Source: Nitrosospira briensis C-128
GTDB taxonomy: Bacteria > Pseudomonadota > Gammaproteobacteria > Burkholderiales > Nitrosomonadaceae
Length of the DNA: 64,000 nt
Direction of reading: 5' to 3'
Assembly (NCBI RefSeq): GCF_000619905.2
Contig: NZ_CP012371.1
Location: forward strand, 372,001 to 436,000
Made by a program: the position numbers and the translations under genes. Every line of letters starts with the position of its first letter. Position 1 is the stretch's first letter. Shown piece by piece: positions 7,414 to 52,006 of this stretch. The notes under the pieces were generated by a model. That model did no database searches. It was not told the DNA's origin and saw only the letters and a list, made by a program, of their open reading frames with translations.

Positions 7414-7745
7414 GTTCGTCGCTGATTCTTGGAGATTATCTCCCATAGGTGGAACAGGCTTGCAAAGCAGTGTTCGCCAGGACGCACCGAACTGAACCCG
7501 TTTTCCTCGGCCCTGATTCATATTAGGCCAACTTTTTGATATTTGAATGATTTTGGGGGAATTATTGTGTTGCCGGTTACGTGCACCGAGCACCCGAGAC
7601 CCGAGCTGATCATTGCTGATGAGCTTGCGGCGAGGCAGGAGGAACTTCTCGACGTTTCGCTGGAACACTGCCATGATGAGCATGTCACGCTGATATTTAT
7701 CAGTTGACGAGCGCTTCGCCAGCCATTTCACACGTTTCATCCCTT

Positions 7746-7780
7746 TACATGAAAATGTAATCCCTTTACATGAAACTGTA
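7746..7780. promoter_or_regulatory. Tandem imperfect palindromes, candidate operator
   Basis: Two copies of CCCTTTACATGAAA stand exactly 21 bp apart. Each contains an inverted repeat TACAT-GAAA-ATGTA (7746-7759, perfect) or TACAT-GAAA-CTGTA (7767-7780, one mismatch). The 21-bp period is two helical turns, as expected for cooperative dimers. The site lies in the divergent region between the copper ATPase and the pstS-like gene, so a metal- or phosphate-responsive regulator could act here. The regulator is unknown; the symmetry is seen, the role inferred. Confidence 0.4.
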
Positions 7781-7858
7781 TGAACGCTGGGCGAAGCAAC
7801 AGGGCCTTAGGCGGTGATGTGTGGCGACTAATCCGAGTTAACCGAAGGGAGAAAAAAA

Positions 7859-8875: not shown

Positions 8876-9330
8876 TCCTGAATCCAGTAGTTAGTGCCGC
8901 TTTCGAAATCTCGGCAGATCCGGGTTTTGGCCCGGAACTCCGATGCATCCTGATGCCAATCGATGACCTCGCCGGCTATCTCATTGCGTGCGCCCATTTC
9001 CGAACGAGAACGAGCATCCTTAGTTCGCCCCTTACCGGCTTGCTGCCTGCCATAAGGCGGGAATCAAAGTGATAGCTGAGGTGAATGCCCACAGCGTTCT
9101 CCTTTGTGGGTTGTTTAAAATGATCAGCTGTTTTGGCGGGTTCCGCTTCGCTCAACCCGCCCTACCGAACTGGTCTTTGATGGGTTACGCTTCACTTCAT
9201 CCATATTGACCATAGTATATATATCATTATTTTCATAATATTATATATTAAAGTTAAAGAGAATTCTTCGGGTGAAACACCCCTTAAAGCAGGTCAATTT
9301 ATGCCTTGTGAAAACAATATTAATTATACG
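8876..9330. other. Gene-free stretch between pstS-like and cusA genes
   Basis: About 455 bases with no convincing gene. It contains a short hairpin (8919-8936, TCCGGG/CCCGGA without a T-run), the REP-like palindrome listed separately, and an AT-rich block around 9210-9255. The two flanking genes converge, so both transcripts probably end here, but no textbook terminator is seen. Confidence 0.5.
9135..9161. repeat. REP-like palindrome
   Basis: Stem GGCGGGTT (9135-9142) pairs with AACCCGCC (9154-9161) around an 11-base loop (CCGCTTCGCTC). A second imperfect GGGTTACGCTTC segment follows at about 9182. This resembles short extragenic palindromes common in betaproteobacterial intergenic space. 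No other copy was noticed in this window, so repeat status is by resemblance. Confidence 0.45.
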
Positions 9331-12300: not shown

Positions 12301-12456
12301 TTCCGTATAGATGATGACCTGTACGTCCGAGAGATCCGGAATCGCGTCCAGGGGCATGCGGATCACGGCGTAGATGCCCAGGCCGATCACGAACGCGGTC
12401 CCCAGCAACACCAGGAACACGTTGCGTGCGGACCATTCGATAATTCGGCCCAGCAT
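9331..12456 (-). CDS. cusA: CusA/CzcA-family heavy-metal RND efflux pump
   Basis: A 1041-residue inner-membrane RND proton antiporter; the usual CusA length is about 1047. I chose the ATG at 12456 (MLGRIIEWSARNVFLVLLG), 1 base after the cusB stop; the frame extends upstream without family similarity. Visible features are the first transmembrane helix, a DAIPDLSDVQVI segment, repeated 12-helix architecture with the proton-relay segment (GAMVDAAIVMIENAHKHLE), and a C-terminal GTGSEVMRRIAAPMVGG. With cusB and cusC it would form a tripartite Cu(I)/Ag(I) exporter. Metal specificity is inferred from the CusF domain in its partner and the CopA neighbour. Confidence 0.92.
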   Translation of the reverse strand: MLGRIIEWSARNVFLVLLGTAFVIGLGIYAVIRMPLDAIPDLSDVQVIIYTEYPGQAPQVVEDQVTYPLSTAMLAVPKSKVVRGLSVFGASFIYVIFEDHTDIYWARTRVLEYLNFASGRMPRGVTPTLGPDATGVGWVYQYVVVAAQHTLAELRTIQDWFVRYQLTKAQGVAEVASVGGFVKTYQVTVEPRKLQAYGIPLNQVAAVIRASNRDVGGRVIEMAETEYVVRGRGYLRGISDIENLVVKATEGTPVLIRDVARVELAPDERRGIAELNGEGEVVSGIAVARYGQNALGVIDNLKSKIKEISSGLPEGVSLQAVYDRSDLIHRAIDNLKRVLIEESIIVGVVCIVFLMHARSALVAIVMLPIGVLIALTAMHMLGLNSNIMSLGGIAIAIGAMVDAAIVMIENAHKHLERAPPGAPRLQIVIDACREVGPALFFSLLIITVSFLPVFTLEAQEGRMFAPLAYTKTFAMAGAALLSITLVPVLMFLFIRGKIMPEQKNPINRFLIWIYRPVIAWVMRWKKLTIIMAVITLALSVFPAMKLGSEFMPTLNEGSLLFMPITLPALSITKSAELLQTQDRIIKTFPEVESVFGKAGRANTATDPAPLEMAETIINLKPESEWRAGVTIDSLIAELDQALQIPGVSNAWTMPIKNRIDMLATGIRTPIGIKVFGKDLGEMEELARQIETVVKTVPGTTSAYAERTTGGYYLDIEPDRIELARYGLSVGDLLEVISVALGGEMLTTTVEGRERFGVTVRYPRELRQDPLTIATQVLVPLPNGGMIPLGQVASVKTIKGPPSIRTENALLSAYIFIDIRHRDIGGYVAEAQKAVRERVKFPPGYYATWSGQFEYMERAKQKLKLVVPLTLAIIFLLLYLNFRRFTETLIVMLSVPFSLVGGIWLIWLLGYNLSVAVAVGFIALAGVAAETGVVMLIYLDHAWDAIKAKRASTGDKPTVTDLYAAVMEGAVERVRPKIMTVVAIMAGLLPIMWGTGTGSEVMRRIAAPMVGGMVSSTLLTLIVIPAIYAIVKEWGLRKQINI

Positions 12457-12457
12457 A

Positions 12458-14083
12458 TCAGTGCCCCCGCTGATCGTTGGCAGCGGGATTTGAAGTTGGG
12501 CTGGCATGCAGCGACTGGATGCGAACGATGACATATTCGCCAGCCGACTCCTCGACGATCTCGAAATCGACCTTCTGGCCGGGCTTCAGCGACCGCAGCA
12601 ATGCCGGGTCCCTGGCACGGAAATCCATGGTCATCGCTGGCCAGTCGAGGCTGGCGATCGGATCATGTGCAATCGTTACCGTCGCATGCACCCAATCCAT
12701 TTCTTTAACAGTGCCTATGCCATGATGACTTGCTGATACAGGTGCGGCCCCTGGTGTTGTCATGGATGCGCCGGGCGTGGCCTGCCCGTTCTCGCCGGGT
12801 ATGGAACCCAGGTGGTGGTCGAAACCGCCTAGTGCCGCCTTAAGGTTACTCTCTGCATCGATCAGAAAGTTCGCGCTGACCACAACCGTTTCCCCAGCTT
12901 CCAATCCCCCCAGCACTTCAACATAACCATCGGCGTGGATGCCCAGTTTTACCGTGCGCGGCTCAAACCGGCCTTCGCCCAAATCAACCAGCACCAACCG
13001 CCGTGTGCCGCTGTCAAGCACAGCCGAATCAGGCACGGTAAGCATCTTGTTTTTACTGTGAGTCGAGGCGAACTCCACCCTGCCGTACATGGCGGGCTTG
13101 AGCAATCCCTGAACGTTGGGAAGTTCGATGCGTACTTTTGCGGTACGGGTTTCGGGCATCACCGTGGGATAGATGAATGTCACCTCGCCGTTGAACACTT
13201 TGTCCGGATACGCATCCATCCTGATGGCGGCGCTCTGGCCCCGCTGCACTATGCCCAGATCCTGTTCGAACACATCCGCCAGCACCCAAACCTTGGAGAG
13301 ATCGGCAATCTGGTACAGTGCTTCTCCGGCCATGAAGCGCTTTCCCTGGATTGCGGGTTTTTCGATCACTGCGCCGCTGGCTGGGGAACGCAGGGTGACA
13401 TACCGTTTGATCCGGCCTTCTTCCTGCAGCGCTTGCAGGTCGAAATCCGATATGTCCCAGTTGCGCAGCCTCTGCAAGGCATTCTCTGACAGCCGCTGCA
13501 TGCCCGCCCGAACCTCTGGCCCGCTTCCCTCGACCGACCTCATCCCTTTCCTGGCAATAAGGTATTCATGTTGTGCTGTGATCAGTTCGGGGCTGTACAC
13601 ATCCATCAACGCCTCGCCTTTTTTCACCGCCTGGCCGGTGGTATTCACGTAAAGCCGCTGGATCCAACCCTCGAACTTGGGCGCCACAGTATATAGTTGC
13701 CGCTCGTCTGCCTGTACCGTTGCCACCGCCCTCACGGTACGAGTGAGTTCGCGCAGCGCGACAATCTCGGTTCTCACGCCCAGTTTTTGTATTTTTTCGG
13801 TACTGATCTTCACCACGGAGCTACCAGATGGGGATTCTTCGCCCTCGTAAACCGGGAGGTAGTCCATGCCCATGGAGTCTTTCTTCGGCACCGGCGATGT
13901 GTCAGGGTGTCCCATCGGATTGCGGTAATAAAGAATCTTCGGCTTATGTATCGACGCCTCGGACTTTTGCGGCTCAACCGTAGACGTAGAAGTTGCGGAT
14001 TTGGCGCTGCCCCACCAATATCCTGCGGCCAGGGCCGCTGCGATCAAGGCGATAATCGCTATCAAGCTGGTGATGGTTTTCAC
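12458..14083 (-). CDS. cusB: CusB-type periplasmic adaptor with fused CusF-like copper domain
   Basis: A 541-residue membrane fusion protein starting at GTG (14083), overlapping the cusC stop by 4 bp. Order of parts: N-terminal anchor or signal helix, a heavy-metal-binding segment (YYRNPMGHPDTSP, then DSMGMDYLPVYEGE), the barrel-sandwich hybrid and helical adaptor regions, and a C-terminal CusF-like domain from about residue 455. That domain has a His in IAHDPIAS and the WPAMTMDF motif, matching the His, Trp, Met and Met ligands of CusF. A separate cusF gene is absent, so the fusion probably replaces the periplasmic chaperone. It lies between cusC and cusA in one operon. Confidence 0.9.
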   Translation of the reverse strand: MKTITSLIAIIALIAAALAAGYWWGSAKSATSTSTVEPQKSEASIHKPKILYYRNPMGHPDTSPVPKKDSMGMDYLPVYEGEESPSGSSVVKISTEKIQKLGVRTEIVALRELTRTVRAVATVQADERQLYTVAPKFEGWIQRLYVNTTGQAVKKGEALMDVYSPELITAQHEYLIARKGMRSVEGSGPEVRAGMQRLSENALQRLRNWDISDFDLQALQEEGRIKRYVTLRSPASGAVIEKPAIQGKRFMAGEALYQIADLSKVWVLADVFEQDLGIVQRGQSAAIRMDAYPDKVFNGEVTFIYPTVMPETRTAKVRIELPNVQGLLKPAMYGRVEFASTHSKNKMLTVPDSAVLDSGTRRLVLVDLGEGRFEPRTVKLGIHADGYVEVLGGLEAGETVVVSANFLIDAESNLKAALGGFDHHLGSIPGENGQATPGASMTTPGAAPVSASHHGIGTVKEMDWVHATVTIAHDPIASLDWPAMTMDFRARDPALLRSLKPGQKVDFEIVEESAGEYVIVRIQSLHASPTSNPAANDQRGH

Positions 14084-15648
14084 AGAGGCTCCGCTGGGAT
14101 GGGCAGGCGGACTGGTGACGGCGGTTTGCCGGTGAGTAAATCAATTTCCGCCAGCGCCTTGTTATAGCCTGTCATGGCTGTCGCCAGACTGATCTCATAG
14201 TTGAATACCGTCATCTGGCTATCGAGCAGCGTAAGAAAGTCGACACGGTTGACCTGGTATGCGGACATCGCCGATTCAACCGTAAGCCGGGCCTGCGGCA
14301 GGATGGCGGTCTGGTAGAGCCGCGCCGATTGCAAATTTTGCTCGGCCAGCGCCATCTGCTGGCGCAGGCTGGCGGCTACCTCATTGCGTTGCGCCTCGTA
14401 CATGCTCTGGGCCTGATCGCGCTTCGCCAGGGCTTCTGCAACGCGTGGCGCGAGCTTGTTTTCGCGCCACACCGGCAGATTGACCGCTACAGTCAGGGTT
14501 ACCATGTCGGGGCGCCTGCTGCCGTCCAGCATGTTGTCGCGCTGACCGTACGCCAGACGCACATCGAAGTCGGGGTAATAATTTTTGCGCGCCAGATCCA
14601 GCGCTTTTTCGTTACGTGCCACAATACTTTGCAGCGCCAGTAATTGCGGTCGCCGCGAAAGAGCAGTTTCGCGCAACGATTCCAGACTCAAGGTTTCTTC
14701 GCGCAATTGCGGCGGCTCAGGTACAGGCGATGCAAGGATTGCATTACGGCCTAACGCGCGAATGAGCTCGGCTTCAACTGTCGGTCGTTCACGCGCGAGC
14801 TTGAGCAGTTCGTCCAGCATTCTGGATACCTGCGTCTGTGCCTTCAGTGCATCGGCCTGACTTCCCATGCCTACCCCGTAGTGTTGCTCGGCGATGTGGC
14901 GCATATCTTCCAGGATCAGCTTGTTTTTCTCGACCAGCCGAGTCTTTTCAAGGATGAGCCCCAGCTCGAAATAAGCAGCCTTGATATCGCGTGCTACACG
15001 GTTCACGGTTTCCTGATAACCATGGCCGACACTCTGCGCATCCCGCATTGCGACGTCCTTGCGCAAGCCGCGCTTACCGGGGAACGGCACGCGCTGGGAC
15101 AGACCGATCATTTTCATGGTCATGTCATCGCGATTGAAAGTTGATGATACCAGCGGCGCATTGATCACCCCTGCTTCGAGAATGGGGTCGTCGAGCGCTT
15201 CGGCCGGGGCTATTCTCTGGCTGGCGGCCTCCCGCTCCCACAAAGCGGCCTGGATTTCCGGATTGCTTTCCATTGCTTCCGCGATCAGCGCAGCCAATGC
15301 GGTAGCGCCATTTGTTGCAGAGACTTCCATGGCGGGTCCAAAAGTAGTCGAGGTACTTTCTGGCACAACGGCGCTAACGGAGGCTTCTGCTTTTACATTC
15401 GCTGAAAATATAGCTATGGCAAAAAATGCGGCGGTTGCCGCGCTTTGAATCATTCCGGCCGGTTTTCCGGCATCTATTGATCTGGCGCTTCCAGTGCTCT
15501 TTGCGATTTTGTACAGGCTTCTCGCGGCAAGACGCCGCTGAGCATGAGTAACTGGAATCTGAATGGCTGCGGACGGCATTTCCTTTGGAAGCGCCTCGAA
15601 GTTTCCAACGCCGAGTCGCTGCGATGCAACAGGGAATGAGAGGTTCAT
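14080..15648 (-). CDS. cusC: CusC-like outer-membrane efflux protein (TolC family)
   Basis: A 522-residue TolC-family outer-membrane factor. Start chosen at ATG 15648 (MNLSFPVAS) because AAGGA lies about 7 bases upstream; a longer frame reaches 15735. The N-terminus is unusually long before the hydrophobic signal-like segment (AATAAFFAIAIFSANVKAEA, near residue 75), so the true start could be further in. The mature part has the two OEP repeats with long coiled helices (for example VARDIKAAYFELGLILEKTR). First gene of the cusCBA operon, overlapping cusB by 4 bp. Confidence 0.87.
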   Translation of the reverse strand: MNLSFPVASQRLGVGNFEALPKEMPSAAIQIPVTHAQRRLAARSLYKIAKSTGSARSIDAGKPAGMIQSAATAAFFAIAIFSANVKAEASVSAVVPESTSTTFGPAMEVSATNGATALAALIAEAMESNPEIQAALWEREAASQRIAPAEALDDPILEAGVINAPLVSSTFNRDDMTMKMIGLSQRVPFPGKRGLRKDVAMRDAQSVGHGYQETVNRVARDIKAAYFELGLILEKTRLVEKNKLILEDMRHIAEQHYGVGMGSQADALKAQTQVSRMLDELLKLARERPTVEAELIRALGRNAILASPVPEPPQLREETLSLESLRETALSRRPQLLALQSIVARNEKALDLARKNYYPDFDVRLAYGQRDNMLDGSRRPDMVTLTVAVNLPVWRENKLAPRVAEALAKRDQAQSMYEAQRNEVAASLRQQMALAEQNLQSARLYQTAILPQARLTVESAMSAYQVNRVDFLTLLDSQMTVFNYEISLATAMTGYNKALAEIDLLTGKPPSPVRLPIPAEPL

Positions 15649-15823
15649 CCTGATTTCCTTAACATATGGTGGTAGAGCAGCCGATAAGGCAGTACATCGG
15701 CTAGCGGTTTTCGTTAGCGCTCTCGGCAATTGCAACCGCCATGAGGCGCTACCGCAAAAAATCTTAAGTATGAATTAGGTAAACGATTGCCGATGCAACA
15801 GGCGGATTTCTTCTGTCGAAGAA

Positions 15824-40203: not shown

Positions 40204-40616
40204 GAAGCTCTCCTTATTGATGCCTGATAGTTTCCGTTAAAGCGATTGATCGTCGAGGGTATACGGCAGGATCATGCCAGACATTAACTGCATCACGGCA
40301 AATGATGATGGGGTAGCCCAGGAAGCTCCTTCTGCATCCACAATTTTCCAGAGGATGAGTTTGGCGGAAGGTGCATACGAACCTTCCGAGGGACGGCACA
40401 AAATCGCAGCATCTCATCTGTGGAAACAGATTGAATCCAAAGCCCAGGTTCTGGCTACGATCTAGCATGAATACGGCAACCGGGTAAAGTGTAACGCCTG
40501 ACGACAGTGTCAACAACGGTCTGGCAAAAGCCGCCGCTGCCAACGTGGGATTGCGAGCTAATGTCACGTAAGGAATAATCTTTAAGCTGCCGTGGAACGA
40601 CCTGCTCAGAAGATTC
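40204..40616. other. Gene-free stretch between zinc-ribbon gene and the repeat-protein cluster
   Basis: About 410 bases. A minus-strand frame at 40214-40567 has no ribosome site or family signal and is probably not coding. No strong hairpin was found. Confidence 0.35.
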
Positions 40617-41048
40617 CTAATCCCTCTTTACAGCAATCCAGGAAGTGACATCACCCGCCTTGGCCCGGCCATCACTGTGAGGGACCGTGCGTACCACGGA
40701 ACCTGTCAGCGTTGGACGCTGATTGATGCCATTCGACCACATCGGAGTGAAAAAACCCACATAGTCATAGACCTGCCCATAGGAATCCTTGGTGTCGCCA
40801 ATCCCCCGAAATCGTACCGTGCATGGAAGAACAAAAGTCGTCCAGCCCGATAACCGGAATTGATAGGTATCACCGAAGGACAGTCGCCCCGCAAACACTT
40901 CCGGACCGAATTCTTCGATGATAAGTTCTCCCCTTCCGAACTCAAGCGCATTGAATTCCTTCGAAACATCGGGTTCGTTGATAAAGCTTCTGTACGTCCA
41001 GCTTCCTAGTACCGAATGTGGAGGCAAAATGCAGTTTTGCATGGTCAT
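40617..41048 (-). CDS. Unknown beta-rich protein, last gene of the tyrosinase cluster
   Basis: 143 residues, start supported by AAGAGG upstream. No signal peptide. The pattern LGSWTYRSF, GRGELIIEEF, FAGRLSFGDTYQFRLSG, VRFRGIGDT and DYVGFF suggests a small antiparallel beta barrel of avidin or lipocalin type; this is by eye only. It ends the - strand gene series starting at 46677 and is separated from the protease gene by 82 bases. I do not recognise the family. Confidence 0.6.
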   Translation of the reverse strand: MTMQNCILPPHSVLGSWTYRSFINEPDVSKEFNALEFGRGELIIEEFGPEVFAGRLSFGDTYQFRLSGWTTFVLPCTVRFRGIGDTKDSYGQVYDYVGFFTPMWSNGINQRPTLTGSVVRTVPHSDGRAKAGDVTSWIAVKRD

Positions 41049-41130
41049 GGTTCGAACCTCTTGATTTTGTTTATGAAACTCATCGGTATTTTTTATGACC
41101 GGTGAGGCTTAAGGCGTGGCGCCCATGGTA

Positions 41131-42453
41131 TTAGCAAATCCCCGGCGCGGGCTGCAATGGTGGAGGGGGCGGATAGGGAATCAGGAATGGCGGCTGCGGG
41201 GGAAACGGCGGAGGGGGCGGATAGGGAATAAGCGCCGGTTCCTCGAACGGCTGGCATGGCTGACCCGCCTGACCCGGCTGATTTGGCTGACCCGTCTGAC
41301 CCGGCTGGTTTGGCTGGCCCGTCTGACCCGGCTGATTTGGCTGACCTGTCTGACCCGGTTGATTTGGCTGGCCCGTCTGACCCGGCTGGTTTGGCTGGCC
41401 CGTCTGACCTGGTTGATTTGGCTGCCCCGTCTGACCTGGTTGATTTGGCTGGCCCGTCTGACCCGGTTGATTTGGCTGGCCCGTCTGATCCGGTTGATTT
41501 GGCTGAGTGCTCATGCTCACATCCAGAGCCGCTAAAACCGCCGCGATGGGGTTTGCTAAGCCATAAGGATCTTTCGGGTCACCCGCAAAGTAGAGGCCGA
41601 CAACCTCGTTGGCATCATTGAGTATTAAGGAGCCGGAGTCCCCGTTGTCGCCAAACTTCGCATTCCGGGTTGAATCGGGCTTTATTCCGATCTGGTTAGT
41701 AAGCTGAATCTGACCAATACCATGTCCAAAGTCGAGATTCACGCTGAGTTCATCCGTATCGACAATGCCGTAGGTCAGCCCCGTGGTCCGTCCGCGCTTC
41801 CGCACGGACTCGCCGAGGGTTGCCTTATTGGTTCCCGCTATCTTGCCGATATCAAGGATCTCCCAGTCTGCCTGACGGGCCGAAAGCTCCGCTACTGCAC
41901 AATCAACCTGATCGCCGAATATCCCGCGCTTCAGTATAGCGACCTCCGAACCGGGACACTTGCCCCCGTCAATCCGGGAGGGCTGCACAATCGCGTCGCC
42001 GACGGACCACGACTTGTCGATGCACAGCACATGAAAATTACTCAGGATCATGGGCTTGCCGGTCGCATTATCCGTGACGAGCGCGCCCAAGGTTCCACCC
42101 CAAGTCATTCGATCCACCAGGCGGCACGGACCGATGCTCATCCCGCCCTTTAAAACGGGATACTCTTTCATATCCGCCTCCAGGACGAGATCAAGGGCAT
42201 CCACGGCCAAAGGTTGCAATACGAACCTTCGCTCGATCACATCAGTGGGAAATCCCTCAATGGCCTGGGGAATACTATCCGCTGGCGAAACATCCCGTTT
42301 TTTCTCGACAAGCACGCGAATCGCCATGGTATTGGTGGGCCGGCCTCCTACTTCCTTAAAGCCGATATCTACTCCCGTAACTCCCGGGCGATTCAGCAGA
42401 TTTTTTTCCACGGCCGTCTTAGCCTGTTTTAGCTTGGGATCAATCTCTGCCAT
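41131..42453 (-). CDS. Trypsin-like serine protease with Pro/Gln repeat tail
   Basis: 440 residues; start supported by GGAGAG six bases before the ATG. N-terminal region (residues 1-95) includes RPGVTGVDIGFKEVGGRPTN, seen in some Nal1-like bacterial proteases. The catalytic triad can be proposed: His in LSNFHVLC, Asp in QVDCAVAEL, Ser in NGDSGSLIL. After that come nine 9-residue units (GQPNQPGQT type) and a tail rich in PPPPP and tyrosine (IPYPPPPP twice), ending in Cys. No signal peptide. Could be a processing protease or an adhesive matrix component. Same strand as the Tyr-repeat gene. Confidence 0.75.
   Translation of the reverse strand: MAEIDPKLKQAKTAVEKNLLNRPGVTGVDIGFKEVGGRPTNTMAIRVLVEKKRDVSPADSIPQAIEGFPTDVIERRFVLQPLAVDALDLVLEADMKEYPVLKGGMSIGPCRLVDRMTWGGTLGALVTDNATGKPMILSNFHVLCIDKSWSVGDAIVQPSRIDGGKCPGSEVAILKRGIFGDQVDCAVAELSARQADWEILDIGKIAGTNKATLGESVRKRGRTTGLTYGIVDTDELSVNLDFGHGIGQIQLTNQIGIKPDSTRNAKFGDNGDSGSLILNDANEVVGLYFAGDPKDPYGLANPIAAVLAALDVSMSTQPNQPDQTGQPNQPGQTGQPNQPGQTGQPNQPGQTGQPNQPGQTGQPNQPGQTGQPNQPGQTGQPNQPGQTGQPNQPGQAGQPCQPFEEPALIPYPPPPPFPPQPPFLIPYPPPPPLQPAPGIC
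41266..41505 (-). repeat. 27-bp coding repeats (GQPNQPGQT units) in the protease gene
   Basis: Nine near-identical 27-bp units: eight GQPNQPGQ[T/A] and a variant first unit QPNQPDQT. The unit keeps the frame. Likely to vary in number between strains by slippage or recombination. Confidence 0.85.
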
Positions 42454-42537
42454 AGCAGTCTCTCCAGTATCGGTACGGGAAAATTATTTTTCCAGACCTT
42501 TGTTTATCAATAATGACCAGCTGCCCATCTCGCCAGG

Positions 42538-43461
42538 TTATGTGGGTGAATCTCCGGATGCAAGTCGGCGTCCGATGGCCAGAAGTAGCTTTTCAGTTTC
42601 TGCCGCGTGCGCGCTGGCAACTGCCGGATCTTCGAGTCTCTCGTAGAGCCCAGCGGGCGCTCCTTCTGCCGCATCAGGTATTTTCCCCATCCATTTGCCC
42701 TGCCAGAAATTGCTTCCAAAAACGCCATGAACTACTTTCCAGCTTTCAACCCGATCATCCACCCACCCATAAAACTTCCAATACACGGGATTAACCTGCA
42801 TCGAATAAAAATCAGGGAGGTAGTTGTACCGAGGGTCGTCCCATTCGACTGGTATTGTCTCAACCTCGGGACCAGGATCGGGGCGCCTGGCACCGGGAAC
42901 AGCCGACCATCTCCGCTTCACCGTGTCATGTACCGTAGTATGGATAAGCTCGCCCAGCATGCCGAGACTTATATCCTTCAAAAACCCCGGATCGGTAAAC
43001 ATGTTCTCCCAGGGCTTGAGGTACTTCGCGAAGGTAAGGTCGGTCTTGGATCGCGTCATGAATTGAATGACTACCGGGAACTCTCCCGGATCAAACCACG
43101 GTGCCGGAACGGGAAAGTCGGGGTCATCCGGACATGATATCTCCAGCCAGCCTTCTATACGCCCATAGCTAGGATCGCCTGCCCGTGCAAGAATCTTGTT
43201 TGCATATTGGATGGTCTGACGATGCATGTAGAGATAATCCTCGCCAGAACCATTGTTCACGAACGGATCGCCATTTTCATCCAAGGCTGGTCGGGGTGGC
43301 TCCCACCCGGCCTTCCGCAACTCATCCTGCAGGTCTTTTGGATAATTTACCCAATTGTCACGCACCTCATGCCAAAGATAGTAATGCATTCGACATGCTC
43401 GGGCAGCCATCGCATCGACAAGTTGTTCAGGAACGGGAGGGGTCACCGAATCTTTCCTCAA
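42538..43461 (-). CDS. Tyrosinase-like protein with incomplete copper site
   Basis: Up to 307 residues from a TTG at 43461 (start uncertain). Clearly homologous to the protein at 44609: MHYYLWHEVRDNW, YLYMHRQTI (H80, the FLxxHR of tyrosinase CuA), ELIHTTVHDTV (H174 and H178, the CuB HxxxH) and NPVYWKFYGWVDDRVESW. In the last motif the copper-binding His of the paralogue (KLHGW) is Tyr231, and an upstream His (SSHVNP) is Gln222. Loss of the CuB ligand suggests an inactive or altered enzyme. It could act as a partner of the intact paralogue, or have a changed role. Confidence 0.7.
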   Translation of the reverse strand: MRKDSVTPPVPEQLVDAMAARACRMHYYLWHEVRDNWVNYPKDLQDELRKAGWEPPRPALDENGDPFVNNGSGEDYLYMHRQTIQYANKILARAGDPSYGRIEGWLEISCPDDPDFPVPAPWFDPGEFPVVIQFMTRSKTDLTFAKYLKPWENMFTDPGFLKDISLGMLGELIHTTVHDTVKRRWSAVPGARRPDPGPEVETIPVEWDDPRYNYLPDFYSMQVNPVYWKFYGWVDDRVESWKVVHGVFGSNFWQGKWMGKIPDAAEGAPAGLYERLEDPAVASAHAAETEKLLLAIGRRLASGDSPT

Positions 43462-43505
43462 TTACAAAAACGTTTCTCGGAAAAGGCTCGCGGGCTGCTC
43501 ATGGA

Positions 43506-44486
43506 TTATTGACAACCACGTACCGCTTCCAGCGACGGATAGCCACCGTAACCACGCTGGGCTTCCAGGGATGGATAGCCACCATAACCGCGCTGGGCTT
43601 CCAGGGATGGATAGCCGCCGTAACCGCGTTGGGCTTCAAGTGATGGATAGCCACCGTAACCACGTTGGGCTTCAAGCGACGGATAGCCGCCGTAACCACG
43701 TTGGGCTTCCAGTGATGGATAACCACCATAACCGCGTTGGGCTTCAAGCGACGGATAACCACCATAACCGCGTTGGGCTTCAAGCGACGGATAGCCACCG
43801 TAACCACGCTGGGCGTCAAGTGACGGATAGCCGCCGTAACCGCGCTGGGCTTCAAGTGACGGATAGCCGCCATAACCGCGTTGGGCTTCAAGTGACGGAT
43901 AGCCACCGTAACCACGCTGGGCGTCAAGTGACGGATAGCCACCGTAACCACGCTGGGCGTCAAGTGACGGATAGCCGCCGTAACCGCGCTGGGCTTCAAG
44001 TGACGGATAGCCGCCGTAACCACGTTGGGCTTCAAGCGACGGATAGCCGCCATAACCACGTTGGGCTTCAAGCGACGGATAGCCGCCATAACCGCGTTGG
44101 GCTTCAAATGACGGATAGCCGCCGTAACCACGCTGGGCTTCAAGTGACGGATAGCCGCCGTAACCACGCTGGGCTTCAAGTGACGGATAGCCACCGTAAC
44201 CACGCTGGGCTTCAAGTGACGGATAGCCGCCGTAACCACGCTGGGCTTCCAGTGACGGATAGCCGCCATAACCACGTTGGGCTTCAAGTGATGGATAACC
44301 GCCATAACCGCGCTGGGCTTCCAATGACGGATAACCGCCGTAACCGCGCTGGGCTTCCAGTGATGGATAACCGCCGTAACCGCGTTGGGCTTCAAGTGAC
44401 GGATAACCGCCATAACCGCGTTGGGCTTCCAGTGACGGATAGCCGCCATAACCGCGTTGGGCTTCAAATTGTGGGCAACCGTTCAT
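43506..44486 (-). CDS. Tyrosine-rich repeat protein (26 copies of a 12-residue unit)
   Basis: 326 residues from ATG 44486. AAGGAG six bases upstream decides this start; an in-frame ATG at 44501 overlaps that ribosome site. The protein is MNGCPQFEAQRG, then exactly 26 units of YGGYPSLEAQRG, then CQ. Variants are few: three units have Asp for Glu, one has Phe for Leu, and the last has Val for Gln. Tyrosine is about one residue in six. The only cysteines are at position 4 and the penultimate residue. There is no signal peptide. It lies between two tyrosinase-like genes, which could oxidise its tyrosines. Function unknown; resembles structural or adhesive repeat proteins in character only. Confidence 0.85.
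   Translation of the reverse strand: MNGCPQFEAQRGYGGYPSLEAQRGYGGYPSLEAQRGYGGYPSLEAQRGYGGYPSLEAQRGYGGYPSLEAQRGYGGYPSLEAQRGYGGYPSLEAQRGYGGYPSLEAQRGYGGYPSLEAQRGYGGYPSFEAQRGYGGYPSLEAQRGYGGYPSLEAQRGYGGYPSLEAQRGYGGYPSLDAQRGYGGYPSLDAQRGYGGYPSLEAQRGYGGYPSLEAQRGYGGYPSLDAQRGYGGYPSLEAQRGYGGYPSLEAQRGYGGYPSLEAQRGYGGYPSLEAQRGYGGYPSLEAQRGYGGYPSLEAQRGYGGYPSLEAQRGYGGYPSLEAVRGCQ
43515..44450 (-). repeat. 36-bp tandem coding repeat, 26 copies
   Basis: Contiguous 36-bp units without spacers. Most differences between units fall at silent positions (for example GCC/GCG and CGT/CGC-type changes on the coding strand), so the protein sequence looks conserved while DNA varies. The length is an exact multiple of 36 (936 bp). 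Confidence 0.95.
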
Positions 44487-44492
44487 AAGAAT

Positions 44493-44498
44493 CTCCTT
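44493..44498 (-). promoter_or_regulatory. Ribosome binding site of the Tyr-repeat gene
   Basis: AAGGAG six bases before ATG 44486. It lies inside the longer in-frame reading that starts at 44501, so it decides the start of the repeat protein. Confidence 0.75.
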
Positions 44499-44608
44499 CA
44501 TTTATGTGCTGCTGTTGGTAAAAATCCCCTCTCATGCAAATTCCTTTATTGCCAATTCTCCAGGCCCTTCTTAATTGGCTGCCAGAACTAGCTTAAAGCC
44601 TTGCCTTC

Positions 44609-45718
44609 CTACCATGCTTCAATCGAAAACGATGGCATGAATGGGTTATGGTGAAAAACGCCTGTTTGGGCGATCAGATTCACGACCTGCTGTGACTCGG
44701 CCATAAGGGAAACCGCATGCTCTGGCATCCCGTGCAATGCGTGCGGGGCAGCCATCTCCTCGTGGCCCGGCATCTTCCCTATCCATGTTCCTTTCCAGAA
44801 ACTATTCCCGAACACGCCATTGGCGATCTTCCAGCCCTCAACCCGATCATCGATCCAGCCGTGCAGTTTCCAGAATATGGGGTTGACGTGACTTGAATAC
44901 GTATCTCCCAAAAAATCGTACCGTGGATCATCCCATTCCACGCCAATCACCCCACCTCTCGTTGGATCGATATCTCCAGTGGCTTGCAGAGGATCAGGAC
45001 GAACGGTGCCAGTGGAGGCCGCCCATCTCATATGCATGGCGTTATGAATCGTCATTTCTATGATTACACCGAGTTTTCCGAGGGTTACACTACGTAGAAA
45101 TACGGGATCAATGAACGCTTTTTGCCAGAAATGGAAGCGTTTCTCATAGAAGATGTTGGATTTGATCCGATCAAGATTCGCGAAAGGTGCCTGATCTTGC
45201 CCCCCTGGATCAAACCAGGCTGGCGGTACGGGGTAGCTTGCATCATCCGGCGGCGGCGGTACCAGCCAGCCCTGTACGCGCGGATAATTCGGGTCCCCGA
45301 CTTGCTTGAGGATAGCGTTGACGTCTCCAATCATCTGCCGGTGCATATAAAGAAAATCTTCGCCGGAATCATTTTCGATATTCGGATTACCGCCTTCATC
45401 CAGAACCGGCCGGGGTGGTTTCCAGCCAAGCTCATCGATCTTCTGTTGAATATCATGTGGGTATTGATACCAGTTGTTCCGCACCTCATGCCAGAGCCAG
45501 TGGTGCATACGGTGCTCGCGGCTGGCCATCATATCGATTACTTCTTTAGGAAGCGGGTGGTCGTTACGGCCCGCTGCACACGCGGGGCATTCCTCGGTGT
45601 GCGCAACGTGCTGATGCGCCTCCGGGTGGGTGTGATCGGAACCCGTATGATGTGGTTGATCGCCGGATGCGGCAGTGGCCATATGATGCAACTGAGGGTG
45701 CAAGTCCGAAGCGCTCAC
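44609..45718 (-). CDS. Tyrosinase-like type-3 copper protein, His-rich N-terminus
   Basis: 369 residues from GTG 45718 (start moderately uncertain). Residues 1-50 carry about ten His and a CPAC motif; no signal peptide. Tyrosinase-like copper motifs: MHHWLWHEV (H72, H73, H77), FLYMHRQMI (H126), TIHNAMHMRW (H225 and H229) and NPIFWKLHGWIDDRVEGW (H286). These match the CuA FLPWHR and CuB HNxxH and DPxFWxxH patterns. Expected chemistry: O2-dependent oxidation of tyrosine or phenols to o-diphenols or quinones. The Tyr-repeat protein, 122 bases downstream, is the obvious candidate substrate (inference). His-rich segment may take up copper. Confidence 0.75.
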   Translation of the reverse strand: MSASDLHPQLHHMATAASGDQPHHTGSDHTHPEAHQHVAHTEECPACAAGRNDHPLPKEVIDMMASREHRMHHWLWHEVRNNWYQYPHDIQQKIDELGWKPPRPVLDEGGNPNIENDSGEDFLYMHRQMIGDVNAILKQVGDPNYPRVQGWLVPPPPDDASYPVPPAWFDPGGQDQAPFANLDRIKSNIFYEKRFHFWQKAFIDPVFLRSVTLGKLGVIIEMTIHNAMHMRWAASTGTVRPDPLQATGDIDPTRGGVIGVEWDDPRYDFLGDTYSSHVNPIFWKLHGWIDDRVEGWKIANGVFGNSFWKGTWIGKMPGHEEMAAPHALHGMPEHAVSLMAESQQVVNLIAQTGVFHHNPFMPSFSIEAW

Positions 45719-45939
45719 CAGTTTCCCATTGGATTTATCATAACGTCATAAATTCGGTAGTTCGTCGCCGCTGATTGTCCGTGAGCTGAAATCCTGTATT
45801 CGATTTTCGAGCCAACTAAACGCCATTCGCTATAATCTGGAAGTAATATAAAAGTGTGTCTAGACTTCTTCGGTGCGGCAACACACAAACATCAAGAATT
45901 TTGAAAGGGCCTTTCAGGGCGCTCCTTTCAAACGATGGC

Positions 45940-46677
45940 TCAAAGAATGGGAATATCTTCCGCGACGCCTTTAAGGTTCAATACATCGTAAGATAATTCC
46001 GCGCCGGCCGGGTTTATCACCCGACCCCTGCTGCGTGCTTTGATTCCCAGCGTTTTGAAATCCTGCCGTGCTTCACCTCCCAGATTAACCGGGGGCAGAA
46101 CAAGCGCGAAATCGATACCACCCGCATCGGCATCCGGTCTGAGAGTGACTGAAATAAGCGACCCGAGAATAGTTTGCTCCTGGGTGATATCTTCTCCATG
46201 GAATATCAACTGACCTTCCGGACCATCGTATTGGAGTTGTGCACCCGCGGGAGACTCGCTTGCTCCCAATGGAGTGAGCGCCCGGGGGAAAAATACGATG
46301 TGCGTACGGCCGTCGCAATCGCTCAGGGTGAAGTGATTGGGATGCCGATCAGATTGACCGGAATCATCCAGCATCGCAGTTTTTGAAATTTGCGAAGCAT
46401 GTATCCGGACCCCTTTCACATCCGGCGTTAAATTTTCCCTGATGTAAACGGCTTCGATGGGAGAAATTACCTGCGTCGCAACTCCCTCGGGAGGATCTGC
46501 AACAAAATCGAAATCGTAAATACCGTCCGGTGGCGCCTGGATATAGATGTAAGGATCCAGTTTGGGATTGGACCAGCCACCGGTGGGCACGGTACCCGAT
46601 GCCGTAATACTTAATTTGGGCGGGAAACTTTCCAGAACGGCAAGCGCGATTTCGGTAACTTCCAGAATTTTTTCCAT
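45940..46677 (-). CDS. Unknown protein, first gene of the tyrosinase cluster
   Basis: 245 residues from ATG 46677, with GGGGA six bases upstream; the frame opens earlier at 46713. No signal peptide. The N-terminal half reads as a beta-sandwich-like domain (LSITASGTVPTGGWSNPKLDPYIYI, DGIYDFDFVADPPEGVATQV), which I associate with uncharacterised proteins in diverse bacteria. A C-terminal half contains PPVNLGGEARQDFKTLGIKARSRG. It is separated from the tyrosinase gene by about 220 bases, so it may have a separate promoter, but the strand is the same. Confidence 0.6.
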   Translation of the reverse strand: MEKILEVTEIALAVLESFPPKLSITASGTVPTGGWSNPKLDPYIYIQAPPDGIYDFDFVADPPEGVATQVISPIEAVYIRENLTPDVKGVRIHASQISKTAMLDDSGQSDRHPNHFTLSDCDGRTHIVFFPRALTPLGASESPAGAQLQYDGPEGQLIFHGEDITQEQTILGSLISVTLRPDADAGGIDFALVLPPVNLGGEARQDFKTLGIKARSRGRVINPAGAELSYDVLNLKGVAEDIPIL

Positions 46678-46813
46678 ACCAGTTCCCCAGAACGTTGAAG
46701 ATGGGCCAGACATCGCTATGCTCTGTATCCGCTTCTATGTTCTTTATAGTTTAGAAAATAGAAAAGGCAAGAGTGAGATTGAGCAAAACGACCGGGGAAT
46801 GTATCTGCGACCG

Positions 46814-47923
46814 TCACAAAAGGCGGTTACGGAACAGCCAGGCAGCCAGCGGTAGTGTAATAGCAGATATGACCAGCAGTGGAATCAGGTCATGGACGAC
46901 TGTGAGCAACCCGACACCCTCCAGGTAGACGCGCTGCGCCAGATCGATCGCGAAGCGCAACGGGTTGATCAAAGTGGCGGTTTGCAGGAATTGCGGCATG
47001 TTACGTACCGGCGTGGCCAGTCCGGAAAGCAGCATCAGCGGCATGATCAGCATGAAAGTGTAAAGCATGGCTTGTTGCATGTTTGCCGAAATCGCCGAGA
47101 TCGATAGCCCCATGCCGACGCTGGCAATAGTGAACAGGCCCAACCCGGTGTAGAGCGTCACCAGTGAACCTGCCATCGGTATATTGAACCAGAACAGCGC
47201 CACTACCAGTACGATGGTGGATTGCGTCAGGCCAATCATGATGATTGGAATAGCCTTACCGATCATGACTTCCATCGGCGAAAACGGAGTCACCAGCAAT
47301 TGGTCGAAAGTGCCATTTTCGCGCTCCCGAGCAACGGACAGCGCAGACAGCATCAGCGTCTGTATCATGCTCAGCGCGGCAATCAAGCCGGGCAGCAGAT
47401 TCCAGCGGGTCTCCAGATTCGGGTTGTACCAGGCACGCGACTCAACGGTGAGCGGCGGTCCGGTCCCGCCGCGCAGCGTCGCATTAAACGAATCGATGAC
47501 TGCGCCAACATAGATCGCAGCGGAGCCGGCCGTATTCGAATTGCGTGCGTCCAGAATCAATTGCACCGGCGCGGATTCGCCTGCGTTCAGTTGTTGCTCG
47601 AACCTTGGCCCGATCTGGATCACGATCAGCGCATCTCCGCTGTCGATTACCCGTGCGATATCGCTCTGCGTCTGCAGCATTGCGATACGATGAAATACGC
47701 CGGTACCGTCCAGGTGAGCGATCAATTCGGTTGATGCGGAGCCACGGCTTTGATCCAGCAAGGCGTAAGGCACATTGGTCAGATCATAGGTGGCCGCATA
47801 ACCGAAAAGAAAACTCTCTATCAATGAGGGAACGACGAGAATGACGCGATTAGCGGGATCCTTGAAAATAGCCAGTAACTCTTTCCGGCACAGGCTGGCG
47901 ATACGGCGCAGGAAATCCAGCAT
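46814..47923 (-). CDS. ybhR: ABC-2 permease of a YbhFSR-type exporter
   Basis: 369 residues from ATG 47923, 2 bases after the other permease stop. An N-terminal membrane helix (residues 25-45), a large periplasmic region, and five C-terminal helices (ALSMIQTLMLSALSVARERENGTFDQLLVTPF is the coupling region before them). With the paralogous permease it would form the membrane part of an efflux pump. Gene order HlyD, double ATPase, permease, permease copies E. coli ybhGFSR, and lengths fit. Confidence 0.82.
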   Translation of the reverse strand: MLDFLRRIASLCRKELLAIFKDPANRVILVVPSLIESFLFGYAATYDLTNVPYALLDQSRGSASTELIAHLDGTGVFHRIAMLQTQSDIARVIDSGDALIVIQIGPRFEQQLNAGESAPVQLILDARNSNTAGSAAIYVGAVIDSFNATLRGGTGPPLTVESRAWYNPNLETRWNLLPGLIAALSMIQTLMLSALSVARERENGTFDQLLVTPFSPMEVMIGKAIPIIMIGLTQSTIVLVVALFWFNIPMAGSLVTLYTGLGLFTIASVGMGLSISAISANMQQAMLYTFMLIMPLMLLSGLATPVRNMPQFLQTATLINPLRFAIDLAQRVYLEGVGLLTVVHDLIPLLVISAITLPLAAWLFRNRLL

Positions 47924-47925
47924 GT

Positions 47926-49155
47926 TCAATCCAGCTTCTTGCGGGTGACGGCTCGTGCCAGCCCCAGCAGCACCACGGCATAGCCCGCCAGGATCGCGCA
48001 GTTCTTGAAAATCAGCGGCCATATGTTGCCCGCCAGGAACAACGTCCTGATCAGTTCCATGAAATAGGTAGCCGGCAGCGCGTTGCCGATAAGATGGATG
48101 ACAGTCGGCACATTACGCAAATCGAAAAAAAAGCCCGATAGCATCAGTGCCGGCATGAAACTGGTGATCAGTGCAAGCTGGCTGGCCAGGAACTGGTTCC
48201 GGGTCACCGAAGAAATCAGCAGGCCCAGGCCTAACGCTACCAGCAGGTAAAGCATCGAACTGCCAAGCACTATCAGCAGTGAACCGTACATGGGCACCTC
48301 GAACAGGAAGCGCGCGGCGAGCAGGCACATGCCCAGGCCAAGCATCCCGACCATAAAGTACGGAATAATCTTCGCCAGCAGTATCTCGTTGGGCCGCACT
48401 GGGGAGACAAACAATGCTTCCAGCGTGCCGCGTTCCCATTCCCGGGCCATTACCATCGCCGTGAGGAAGGCACCGACCAGCGTCATGATCAGTACGATCA
48501 ACCCGGGTACGAGATACCAGGTACTGGTATTGGCGGCGTTGAACCACATCCGCTGAATCAGCGTAACCGAACCCGAGGCGGCACTGTCCACGCCTGCTGC
48601 TGTAACCATCCCTTGATCGCTCTGACGTTGCGCCCACTGGCCCAGGGCGCCGCTGACATAGCTGCGTATGATAAGGGCACGACTGGCATCGGAACCATGC
48701 AGCAGTAACTGCACCTGCGCGTTCCCAGCCGCGAGGCGGCGCGAAAAATCGCTCTGCACCTGCACAATGGCATCCACCTCGCGCGCCAGCATCAGGCGCT
48801 GCGCATCATGCATGGAGGTAACCACTACCGGCGAGATATATGCGGAGAGTTCCAGGCCTGCGATGACATCAGCCGCCATGGGCGAAGGATCTTCCAGCAC
48901 CACCGCCACCGTGGCATTCCTGACATCGAGTGAAAGTCCATAGCCGAAAATCAGGATCAATACGAAAGGCAGGCCGATGCCGATGACCAGGTTGCTCCGG
49001 TCACGCAGTAGCTGGCGAATTTCCTTGCGGGTCAAGGAGATCAGACGCGACAAGAATCCCCTGATACCTTTATGTCTCTTGTACCCATTATCCGCTTTGC
49101 CCGATTTATACGCGGTATGTTCCTTGCTCCCTGCCTCTGTTCCGGCTTTGCTCAT
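47926..49155 (-). CDS. ybhS: ABC-2 permease of a YbhFSR-type exporter
   Basis: 409 residues; ATG overlaps the ATPase stop by 4 bp (ATGA). A polar N-terminus of about 35 residues, longer than YbhS, precedes the first helix (LVIGIGLPFVLILIFGYGLS). The periplasmic domain and the C-terminal ABC-2 helices (MAREWERGTLEALFVSPVRPNEILLAK coupling region) follow. Partner of the permease at 46814. Confidence 0.82.
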   Translation of the reverse strand: MSKAGTEAGSKEHTAYKSGKADNGYKRHKGIRGFLSRLISLTRKEIRQLLRDRSNLVIGIGLPFVLILIFGYGLSLDVRNATVAVVLEDPSPMAADVIAGLELSAYISPVVVTSMHDAQRLMLAREVDAIVQVQSDFSRRLAAGNAQVQLLLHGSDASRALIIRSYVSGALGQWAQRQSDQGMVTAAGVDSAASGSVTLIQRMWFNAANTSTWYLVPGLIVLIMTLVGAFLTAMVMAREWERGTLEALFVSPVRPNEILLAKIIPYFMVGMLGLGMCLLAARFLFEVPMYGSLLIVLGSSMLYLLVALGLGLLISSVTRNQFLASQLALITSFMPALMLSGFFFDLRNVPTVIHLIGNALPATYFMELIRTLFLAGNIWPLIFKNCAILAGYAVVLLGLARAVTRKKLD

Positions 49156-50987
49156 GGGTTGGCTTCCCTGGCGGGACTTTCACTGTTTTTCTGCCGCTCC
49201 TGCTCGACGATGCGGATGAAGGCCTCTTCCATATCCAATCGGGCGCCCTCTCCACCCGCTTGCATCCGTACCTCCTGCGGAGTGCCGAGTGCCAGCAGCC
49301 TGCCGGCATCCTGGATGACAATACGGTCGCAGTACTCGGCCTCTTCCATGAAATGGGTCGTAATGATAATCGTCGTACCCACCTCCGACAGCGCAGTGAT
49401 ACGCCGCCAGAATTCCCGGCGCTTGAGCGGATCGGTGCCACTGGTGGGTTCGTCAAGGAACAGGATATCAGGCTCGTGCAGCAGGCCGACCGCCATCGCC
49501 AGGCGTTGCTTGAATCCGCCGGGCAATTGCCCGCTCGGCGATTTCTCCCTGCCCTCGAGGTCGAACTGTTGCATAACGGTATCGATGCGCTCGCGCAAGC
49601 GCTTGCCGTACAAACCATATGCGCTACCGAAAAACGCCAGGTTTTCCATTACCGAGAGATCGCCGTAAAGCGCAAACTTCTGCGACATATACCCTATCCT
49701 GCGGCGTGCTACCGCGCGAGCACGCAGAAGATTGAAGCCGGCAACCTGAAGAAAACCGCTCGTGGCCGGCAGAAGGCCGCAAAGCATTCGAAAGGTCGTA
49801 GTCTTGCCTGCACCGTTGGGGCCCAGCAGGCCGAAGATTTCGCCGCGCCGAACCGAGAATGAAACATGGTCCACCGCGGTGAAATCACCGAACTTGCGCA
49901 CCAGGTCACGCACCTCGATGACAACTTCATCCGGCTCGCCTTTAGTGTCATCTTCACCTCCTTTAGCATCATCTTCACCGTTACCTTCGTTTCTCATCCC
50001 GCTAGTGGCCTTCAGTGCCGCCGTATCCAGCGGGGCCACATCGTGGCGTTCACGCAGCAGCACCATGAACCCGTCTTCCACGCGTGCTTCGACCGCTGTA
50101 GCCGGAATACCGCCAAGCAAGCTGTCCAGGCGCTGCCGGTCCACCTCGGATCGGCGGATGAAGCGCACAGCGCCGCCGTAAGGAACCGCATCGATGATGC
50201 AATCGGCGTCATCCAGCAAGCGCGCCTGGAGAATACGCGATGGTTGGCCTTGCGGCGGTGTAACGACGAAACACAGGTTGCGCGCATGTTGGCGAATTTC
50301 TTCGGGGGTGCCTTCAGCCAGCAGCTTGCCTTCCTGAAGAACGAAAACACGAGCACAATGCTCGGCTTCATCCAGATAAGCAGTGGTAACCAATACCGTC
50401 AACTGCTCGTCGTCAATCATTTGCTGAACAATCTCCCAGAGCTCCCGGCGCGACAATGGATCGACACCCACCGTCGGCTCATCGAGCAATAGCAGCTCGG
50501 GCGAACGCACGAGGGTGCAGGCCAGGCCCAGTTTCTGCTTCATGCCCCCCGAGAGCTTGCCTGTCGGACGCGCGGTGAAGCATGCCAGATCGGTCATTTC
50601 CAGGAGCCTTGCGTAGCGTTTCCGGCGAATTGCTTGCGGCACGCCATGCAGATCGGCGTAGAGGTCGAGGTTTTCCTGCACGCTGAGGTCTTCATACAGG
50701 CCGAAGCGCTGCGGCATATAGCTGATGCGGTCCTGCACCGCCTGTGGATCGGCTGCCACATCAATGCCCAGCACCTCGAGCCGGCCTTCGTCGGCCGTCA
50801 TCAGTCCGGCTATCAACCGCAGCAAAGTGGTCTTGCCCGCGCCATCGGGACCAACCAGGGCCGTGAGCGAACCCATCTGCACTGCAAGCGAAACGTCAGC
50901 GACCGCTTGAGTCGATTTCCCCGTTTCCTTGACCAGAAAACGTTTATGGACGCGATTTGCAATCAGCGCGACTGCCGGATCGCTCAT
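49152..50987 (-). CDS. ybhF: Double ABC ATPase of a YbhFSR-type exporter
   Basis: 611 residues with two complete nucleotide-binding domains. First: GPDGAGKTT, LSGGMKQKLGLA, LLLLDEPTVGVDP. Second: GPNGAGKTT, LPGGFKQRLAMA, ILFLDEPTSGTDP. An acidic, Lys/Gly-rich linker (KGGEDDTKGEPDE) joins them. I chose ATG 50987, which overlaps the HlyD stop (TGATG); a TTG 3 bases earlier is possible. It drives the two permeases. Confidence 0.88.
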   Translation of the reverse strand: MSDPAVALIANRVHKRFLVKETGKSTQAVADVSLAVQMGSLTALVGPDGAGKTTLLRLIAGLMTADEGRLEVLGIDVAADPQAVQDRISYMPQRFGLYEDLSVQENLDLYADLHGVPQAIRRKRYARLLEMTDLACFTARPTGKLSGGMKQKLGLACTLVRSPELLLLDEPTVGVDPLSRRELWEIVQQMIDDEQLTVLVTTAYLDEAEHCARVFVLQEGKLLAEGTPEEIRQHARNLCFVVTPPQGQPSRILQARLLDDADCIIDAVPYGGAVRFIRRSEVDRQRLDSLLGGIPATAVEARVEDGFMVLLRERHDVAPLDTAALKATSGMRNEGNGEDDAKGGEDDTKGEPDEVVIEVRDLVRKFGDFTAVDHVSFSVRRGEIFGLLGPNGAGKTTTFRMLCGLLPATSGFLQVAGFNLLRARAVARRRIGYMSQKFALYGDLSVMENLAFFGSAYGLYGKRLRERIDTVMQQFDLEGREKSPSGQLPGGFKQRLAMAVGLLHEPDILFLDEPTSGTDPLKRREFWRRITALSEVGTTIIITTHFMEEAEYCDRIVIQDAGRLLALGTPQEVRMQAGGEGARLDMEEAFIRIVEQERQKNSESPAREANP

Positions 50988-52006
50988 CAATGCGCCGTTC
51001 CAGCGAAACTCTTGTCGTCTTGCAAGGGGATGAGCACCGTGGCCGGCATGCCCAGACGCAGGCGGTCACCGACATCTTCGACAAAGACACGCACTTCATA
51101 GACCAGGCTGGTGCGCAGTTCTTCGGTCTGCACAATCTTGGGGGTAAACTCCGCGACTGAGGAGATATAGCCGATGCGGCCCGGAATCGATTGATCGGGA
51201 TGGCTGTCAGTAACCACGCGCGCACTCATACCGGACTTGATGCGGCCCAGATCCACTTCCGATACATAGGCGCGCACCCATTTTGGGTCGGTAATCGCCA
51301 GCGCATATACCGGACGTTGCGGTGAAGCCATATCGCCCGGTTCCAGCAAGCGCGAGCGCACGACGGCATTGATGGGCGACTTCAATTCATACAGGCTGAG
51401 CTGGTGCTTGAGCAAAGCCAGCTCAGCCTGCGAAACGTTCAATTGTGCCTCGGCCTGGGCGATGTCTTCCTTGCGTGGACCGATCACAGCCAATTGCAGC
51501 GCCTTCTGGTTGTTTTCCAGCTGTGCCTGGGCCACACGCTGGCGTGAACGCGCGCTGTCCAGATCCTGCTGGCTGACCGCCTGGTCGGCAGCGTGCTCGA
51601 TATTTTGCAAACGTTTGAGGAGCTGTGCGGCGAGATCCGCGTCGGCGCGAGCAGCAGCGACCTCAGCCTTGGCTTGAGCCACCTCTTCGGGGCGCGTTCC
51701 GTTCCTCAGCCGTAACAAGGCCTGATCCTGTACGTTGATCTGTGCTTCGGCCTGAGCGATTTGCAGGCTCAGGGTGCGGGTGTCGAGCGTGGCCAGGATT
51801 TGTCCGGTCTCCACCCGATCGCCTTCCTGCACGCGCATATCGGCGACCCGTTCGCTGCCGTTGAAAGCTAGCGAGACCTGGCGAATATCGACATTACCGA
51901 AGAGCACCAGCGTATCGCTATCATTCTGCTGCCGGGTGAAATACCAAACTGCCGTCACCGCGACGATGATGACAAGCACAGCCACCAGGACAAGCCTTTT
52001 CTTCAT
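50987..52006 (-). CDS. ybhG: HlyD-family periplasmic adaptor of the YbhFSR-type exporter
   Basis: 339 residues. N-terminal membrane anchor (residues 5-22), lipoyl-like and long coiled-coil region (LQIAQAEAQINVQDQALL, VAQAKAEVAAARADADLAAQ, QLENNQKALQ), and the C-terminal beta-barrel (VRAYVSEVDLGRIKSGM). First gene of the exporter operon. It would link the inner-membrane pump to an outer-membrane TolC protein encoded elsewhere. Substrate unknown. Confidence 0.85.
   Translation of the reverse strand: MKKRLVLVAVLVIIVAVTAVWYFTRQQNDSDTLVLFGNVDIRQVSLAFNGSERVADMRVQEGDRVETGQILATLDTRTLSLQIAQAEAQINVQDQALLRLRNGTRPEEVAQAKAEVAAARADADLAAQLLKRLQNIEHAADQAVSQQDLDSARSRQRVAQAQLENNQKALQLAVIGPRKEDIAQAEAQLNVSQAELALLKHQLSLYELKSPINAVVRSRLLEPGDMASPQRPVYALAITDPKWVRAYVSEVDLGRIKSGMSARVVTDSHPDQSIPGRIGYISSVAEFTPKIVQTEELRTSLVYEVRVFVEDVGDRLRLGMPATVLIPLQDDKSFAGTAH

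Follow-up and report, generated by a model that had tools for sequence, protein, structure and literature searches.

The 64,000-nucleotide stretch of the Nitrosospira briensis C-128 genome analyzed here (hereafter, the window) contains a cassette of five minus-strand genes (40619-45796) that brings together a tyrosinase-like oxidase of the PvdP type (TyrA), its probably inactive sister copy (TyrB), a tyrosine-bearing tandem-repeat protein (Rep), a trypsin-like serine protease (Prot), and a small beta protein (B143). The reading that we favor, to which we assign a probability of about 0.5, is that the cassette oxidizes the tyrosines of the ribosomally made Rep. TyrA would hydroxylate and oxidize the YxGY tyrosines to DOPA and DOPA-quinone, and TyrB and B143 would act as noncatalytic partners in a complex with it (i.e., by holding the substrate, loading copper, or gating the reaction). 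The product would be a DOPA-bearing or quinone-cross-linked repeat polymer, with Prot either activating the oxidase or trimming that product.

The same five genes, in the order TyrA-Rep-TyrB-Prot-B143 and on one strand, occur in 3 of the 23 genomes of the genus. The three carriers, ammonia-oxidizing bacteria, are the source of the window, G021, and Nitrosovibrio tenuis Nv1. Because gene content, order, and strand recur in two further genomes, the cassette is not a chance grouping, and because the order is conserved at sites with unrelated flanks, the five genes either travel together or are retained as a block. The initial annotation had placed six same-strand genes together; all six are indeed minus-strand open reading frames, but the last of them, U257 (45940..46713, minus strand), falls outside the unit, since it is a core gene present in 21 of the 23 genomes and lies away from the cassette in the other two genomes that carry it. 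An ABC exporter (46814-52006) was rejected as a member on similar grounds (16 of the 23 genomes have it, and in the two additional cassette genomes its location is different). G021 resembles the window at the DNA level from 45796 to 40619 and no further. In the window, the cassette is flanked by U257 on one side and by a 77-aa gene on the other, with no adjoining prophage; in both remaining genomes it is situated upstream of a prophage (terminase, portal, major head protein), at a distance of a few kilobases. The GC content of the cassette (0.547) is host-like (window, 0.545) and lends no support to a recent foreign origin; its divergence also resembles that of core genes, and the cassette is thus not a very recent arrival.

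Rep (43506..44486, minus strand; 326 aa, 52 Tyr) is the candidate substrate. Tandem Repeats Finder (TRF) delimited an array with a 36-bp unit (43525-44467, 26.2 copies, 91% match), and the protein contains 26 YGGY units spaced at exactly 12 residues, 21 of which read YGGYPSLEAQRG, bearing out the 26-repeat protein originally described. Translation likely starts at the ATG at 44486, which is preceded by the ribosome-binding site GAAGGAG, rather than at 44501; the N-terminus is then MNGCPQFEAQRG and the C-terminus EAVRGCQ, with a Cys near both ends. Rep is a selected protein, as the DNA of its units differs almost only at silent positions: pS is 0.40 and pN 0.019 among the 26 units of the window, silent-site and amino-acid-changing differences are 0.385 and 0.020 among the 16 units of G021, and the corresponding values are 0.60 and 0.05 among the 19 units of Nitrosovibrio tenuis. 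The unit sequence shifts in step between species (YGGYPSLEAQRG, YGGYPSLEAARG, YPGYTSLEALRG), and both tyrosines of YxGY and the intervening Gly are kept in every unit of all three (26, 16, and 19 units). Every internal unit ends in R-G in all three species, the residue before Arg varying (Q, A, or L), and the last unit continues into a tail that contains Cys (GCQ, HCCH, GCH). No leader peptide was recognized in Rep. No Rep turned up in the remaining 20 genomes of the genus, and a search of viral contigs for Rep-like arrays as a DNA pattern returned none. Plasmid tblastn matches to Rep (approximately 22-41% identity) corresponded to collagen-like and other repeat proteins and were discarded as relatives.

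Both TyrA (44609..45718, minus strand; 369 aa) and TyrB (42538..43461, minus strand; 307 aa) match the NCBIfam PvdP model, with E 3e-48 (164 bits) and E 5e-33 (114 bits), respectively. These scores are far below the equivalog cut-off of 625 bits, and by this measure the two classify as distant relatives of PvdP, the tyrosinase of pyoverdine maturation, rather than as PvdP itself; they are also single-domain chains that lack an export signal. Neither has a match to the Pfam tyrosinase family PF00264 (common central domain). TyrA, a PvdP-like type-3 copper oxidase, matches the PvdP crystal structures PDB 6eys and 6rrp (E 2e-34) and has a His-rich N-terminus with a CPAC motif and no signal peptide. 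Six of its His residues (73, 77, 126, 225, 229, and 286) are invariant in all aligned sequences other than TyrB, including Pseudomonas PvdP and phage-borne relatives; they are taken as the copper ligands from this invariance and from tyrosinase motifs, not from a structure. TyrA is probably catalytic. TyrB keeps His 77, 126, and 225, whereas H73 is replaced by Y/N, H229 by K/R, and H286 by Y/S in all three genomes. The description of both as tyrosinase-like copper proteins therefore stands as to ancestry, but only TyrA looks catalytic, and TyrB, having lost three of the six invariant His, is probably not an active oxidase. Its dN/dS between the window and G021 is 0.074 (TyrA, 0.10), and given the loss of three ligands in every cassette genome under such strong constraint, it is best classified by sequence as a conserved pseudo-tyrosinase. 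TyrA and TyrB are sisters in the tree (support 88/84), with a long stem on TyrB, whose history would have run from duplication through copper-ligand loss to conservation; its role would be that of a noncatalytic partner.

Relatives of B143 (40617..41048, minus strand) form the N-terminal part of fusions with a PvdP-like tyrosinase at three loci, namely L022 (same family), L027 (Mesorhizobium plasmid), and L093 (Streptomyces family), with 32-42% identity between B143 and these N-terminal domains. In five of six further genomes, a B143-like gene stands on its own, next to a gene for a canonical tyrosinase or a multicopper oxidase or to a LodA/LodB pair. B143 is thus a recurring neighbor of copper and quinone oxidases, and the oxidases that it stands beside or is fused to (multicopper oxidase, LodA/LodB, PF00264 tyrosinase, and PvdP-like; L118, L119, L120, L121; L022, L027, L093) belong to several unrelated kinds. 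No Pfam family covers the domain. Alignment by hhalign is at most suggestive of a relation to the N-terminal domain of Pseudomonas PvdP (E 0.045-0.056). Two AlphaFold runs for B143 gave mean pLDDT values of 41 and 55, and a low-confidence model of it is beta-rich; Foldseek found no match at E <= 0.001 and, with a low-confidence model, did not list 6eys. At the fusion locus of the same family (L022:8240-10320, genome G067), an intradiol (catechol-type) dioxygenase gene lies directly upstream, which suggests that this enzyme cleaves a catechol made by the adjoining oxidase.

Prot (41131..42453, minus strand) was originally read as a trypsin-like protease with a Pro/Gln repeat tail, and both features were recovered: it carries the His, Asp, and Ser motifs, matches phrog_20754 (protease, E 9e-128), and ends in a PGQTGQPNQ repeat and a Pro-rich IPYPPPP segment. 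The three motifs are conserved in Nitrosovibrio tenuis as well as in a homologue from Rhizobium (29% identity), which carries a fused nuclease domain and is encoded beside a PvdP-like gene. On a plasmid of Rhizobium sp. T136 (L026:5971-8925), a PvdP-like tyrosinase gene precedes one for a trypsin-like protease joined to a DNA/RNA non-specific endonuclease. A trypsin-like preference for Arg was considered for Prot and set aside, as the residues preceding the active Ser (KFGDNGDSGS) lack the trypsin Asp189 pattern. Subtilase genes adjoin PvdP-like genes in Paenibacillus and occur in their vicinity on a phage contig and in Sinorhizobium.

The site that the cassette occupies has a distinct content in related genomes. 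In the close relative G009, approximately 8 kb stand in the place of window positions 40222-45939. They encode a PatA-like subtilase and a PatG_D/PatG_C protein alongside a canonical tyrosinase (PF00264, E 9e-44) with a 160-aa partner, as well as an AMP ligase and a small peptide whose start (PGFTAEASLY) is leader-like; G015 is similar. These loci (L075:7152-14940 in G009 and L081:7737-16995 in G015) are cyanobactin-like clusters with a canonical tyrosinase and leader-bearing, Cys-rich peptides. U257 lies approximately 0.57 kb from this tyrosinase in 10 of 11 genomes. Beyond B143, the window retains the remnant of a Cys-rich precursor-like peptide gene (40214..40567, minus strand), 63% identical over 51 aa to L081:16702-16995 and apparently truncated at the cassette boundary; no leader for it was found in any frame. 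The simplest reading is that the cassette displaced most of a different tyrosinase cluster in the window and cut its peptide gene short, leaving U257 as the remainder on the opposite side.

We infer the substrate relation, which is the main claim, from linkage in three genomes of one genus: since a PvdP-type oxidase there always adjoins strictly kept YxGY units, the Rep tyrosines are most simply the target of TyrA. Wherever TyrA or Rep occurs in the genus, the two are linked (3/3), and inside the genus the adjacency check turned out as expected. A search with TyrA across 150 relatives recovered the TyrA/TyrB pair in the genome of the window and in two others of the genus, together with one genome of the family that has a single two-domain relative. 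The broader expectation that such oxidases are always accompanied by a Tyr-rich repeat failed, although not for this sub-lineage: PvdP-like relatives mostly lack a repeat gene, and a universal link is ruled out by the distant homologues without one. Because these distant relatives lack such a repeat, it defines the cassette and not the PvdP-like family, which is itself rare (e.g., 3 of 249 sampled genomes of the Streptomyces family and 1 of 201 of the Paenibacillus alvei order). The proposed oxidation of the repeat tyrosines, in short, gains from the linkage and from the retention of Tyr, and is tempered by the homologues without a repeat and by the presence of one catalytic-looking oxidase instead of two. 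Phage contigs (L040:2309-5861, L041:2815-3684, and L039:1042-3834) also carry PvdP-like tyrosinases, one near a subtilase and one shortly after an integrase.

No signal peptides or membrane segments were detected in the cassette proteins, and no dedicated exporter is encoded in the cassette. For the adhesive suggested by the initial annotation, an extracellular location is weakened accordingly, and the lack of a signal peptide argues against a classical secreted adhesive; with neither signal peptide nor exporter, Rep would be oxidized and assembled inside the cell, unless the product leaves by another route. One might speculate that, in the two genomes where a prophage lies nearby, lysis would provide such a route. 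Copper/silver efflux-like genes (P-type ATPase, CusA-, CusB-, and CusC-like, as judged from their sequences) are located approximately 25 kb from the cassette, at 5191-15735.

Among the alternatives, a multi-core RiPP-like pathway is the strongest, although we consider it clearly less probable than the favored reading. Here TyrA would modify the tyrosines and Prot would cut between R and G, freeing many copies of a modified dodecapeptide (e.g., GYGGYPSLEAQR), perhaps a metal-binding catechol peptide. The R-G that closes every internal unit in all three species while the preceding residue varies, the protease with an intact triad inside the cassette, and the cassette's occupation of a site where relatives encode a canonical tyrosinase along with PatA/PatG-like proteins and small, leader-bearing peptides are all consistent with this scheme, and PvdP itself makes a metallophore (PMC6206403). 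It is opposed by the lack of a recognizable separate leader sequence, of the trypsin Asp189 pattern before the active Ser of Prot, and of an exporter; owing to the first two of these, a polymer is a slightly likelier product than R-G-cut dodecapeptides.

It is unlikely that TyrA instead acts on small phenols (in detoxification or in melanin-like or siderophore chemistry) with Rep as a structural or metal-binding protein that has nothing to do with this activity beyond sharing the operon. Such a role would suit the many distant PvdP-like genes without a repeat gene and the further canonical tyrosinases, three in number, in the same genome, but it leaves unexplained why Rep is so exactly linked to TyrA and TyrB in each of the three genomes and why two Tyr per unit are strictly retained. 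Very unlikely, in our view, is a mobile cargo or conflict system in which a protease-triggered, prophenoloxidase-like tyrosinase would gel or poison the cell on phage infection, with Rep as the gelling substrate. The prophage beside the cassette in the other two genomes, and the PvdP-like genes found with S8 peptidases on phage contigs and plasmids, would fit such a system; TyrA, TyrB, Prot, B143, and U257, however, have no match in PADLOC, the cassette of the window has no adjoining prophage, and its base composition and core-gene-like divergence are those of the host.

Several known systems resemble parts of the cassette. Mussel foot proteins and their tyrosinase likewise combine short, Tyr-bearing tandem repeats with a copper oxidase, but they are animal and secreted, whereas the cassette is bacterial, lacks signal peptides, and has an unrelated repeat. 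Fungal dikaritins and cyanobactins are multi-core RiPPs with repeated units in one precursor and with oxidase and protease genes; the cassette resembles this layout, although their enzymes are different and Rep has no recognized leader peptide. The tyrosine oxidation for which we argue has an enzymatic parallel in Pseudomonas PvdP, which hydroxylates and oxidizes a peptide tyrosine (PMC6206403) and has a homologous catalytic domain with the same six invariant His as TyrA. PvdP differs in that its N-terminal beta domain is part of the same chain, while in the cassette this domain seems to be a separate gene, and in that it is periplasmic and acts on the non-ribosomal peptide ferribactin, while the cassette has no signal peptide and includes a dead paralogue along with a repeat protein made on the ribosome. 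Streptomyces MelC1/MelC2 pairs a catalytic tyrosinase with a small beta-rich caddie helper (PMC9454253), much as TyrA is accompanied by B143; the tyrosinase is of another subclass (PF00264, not matched by TyrA or TyrB), and no sequence relation between B143 and the caddie was detected. The insect prophenoloxidase cascade also joins a type-3 copper enzyme to a trypsin-like protease (PMC11818254); the cassette is not homologous to it as a system and gives no sign of protease-triggered activation.

In the open-access literature searched, we came across no earlier bacterial system of this kind. More tentatively than the oxidation itself, we suggest that the cassette is a new post-translational system, able to move between sites as a unit, in which a PvdP-type tyrosinase and its dead paralogue convert a tandem-repeat protein to a catechol/quinone polymer or to identical DOPA peptides. 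If so, bacteria would have a previously undescribed means of making a catechol-rich polymer or peptide, and DOPA-rich protein, a target in adhesive and materials chemistry, would be within reach of a compact set of bacterial genes. The range of the PvdP subclass would also widen, from siderophore maturation to substrates made on the ribosome, and the cassette would provide a clear case of an enzyme and its catalytically dead sister kept together under selection. The proposal further makes testable why ammonia oxidizers of this genus carry so many tyrosinases. In the genome of the window, the additional canonical tyrosinases (L108, L109, and L110) each stand beside a different small protein gene, and the small protein at L109 (124 aa) is related to U257.
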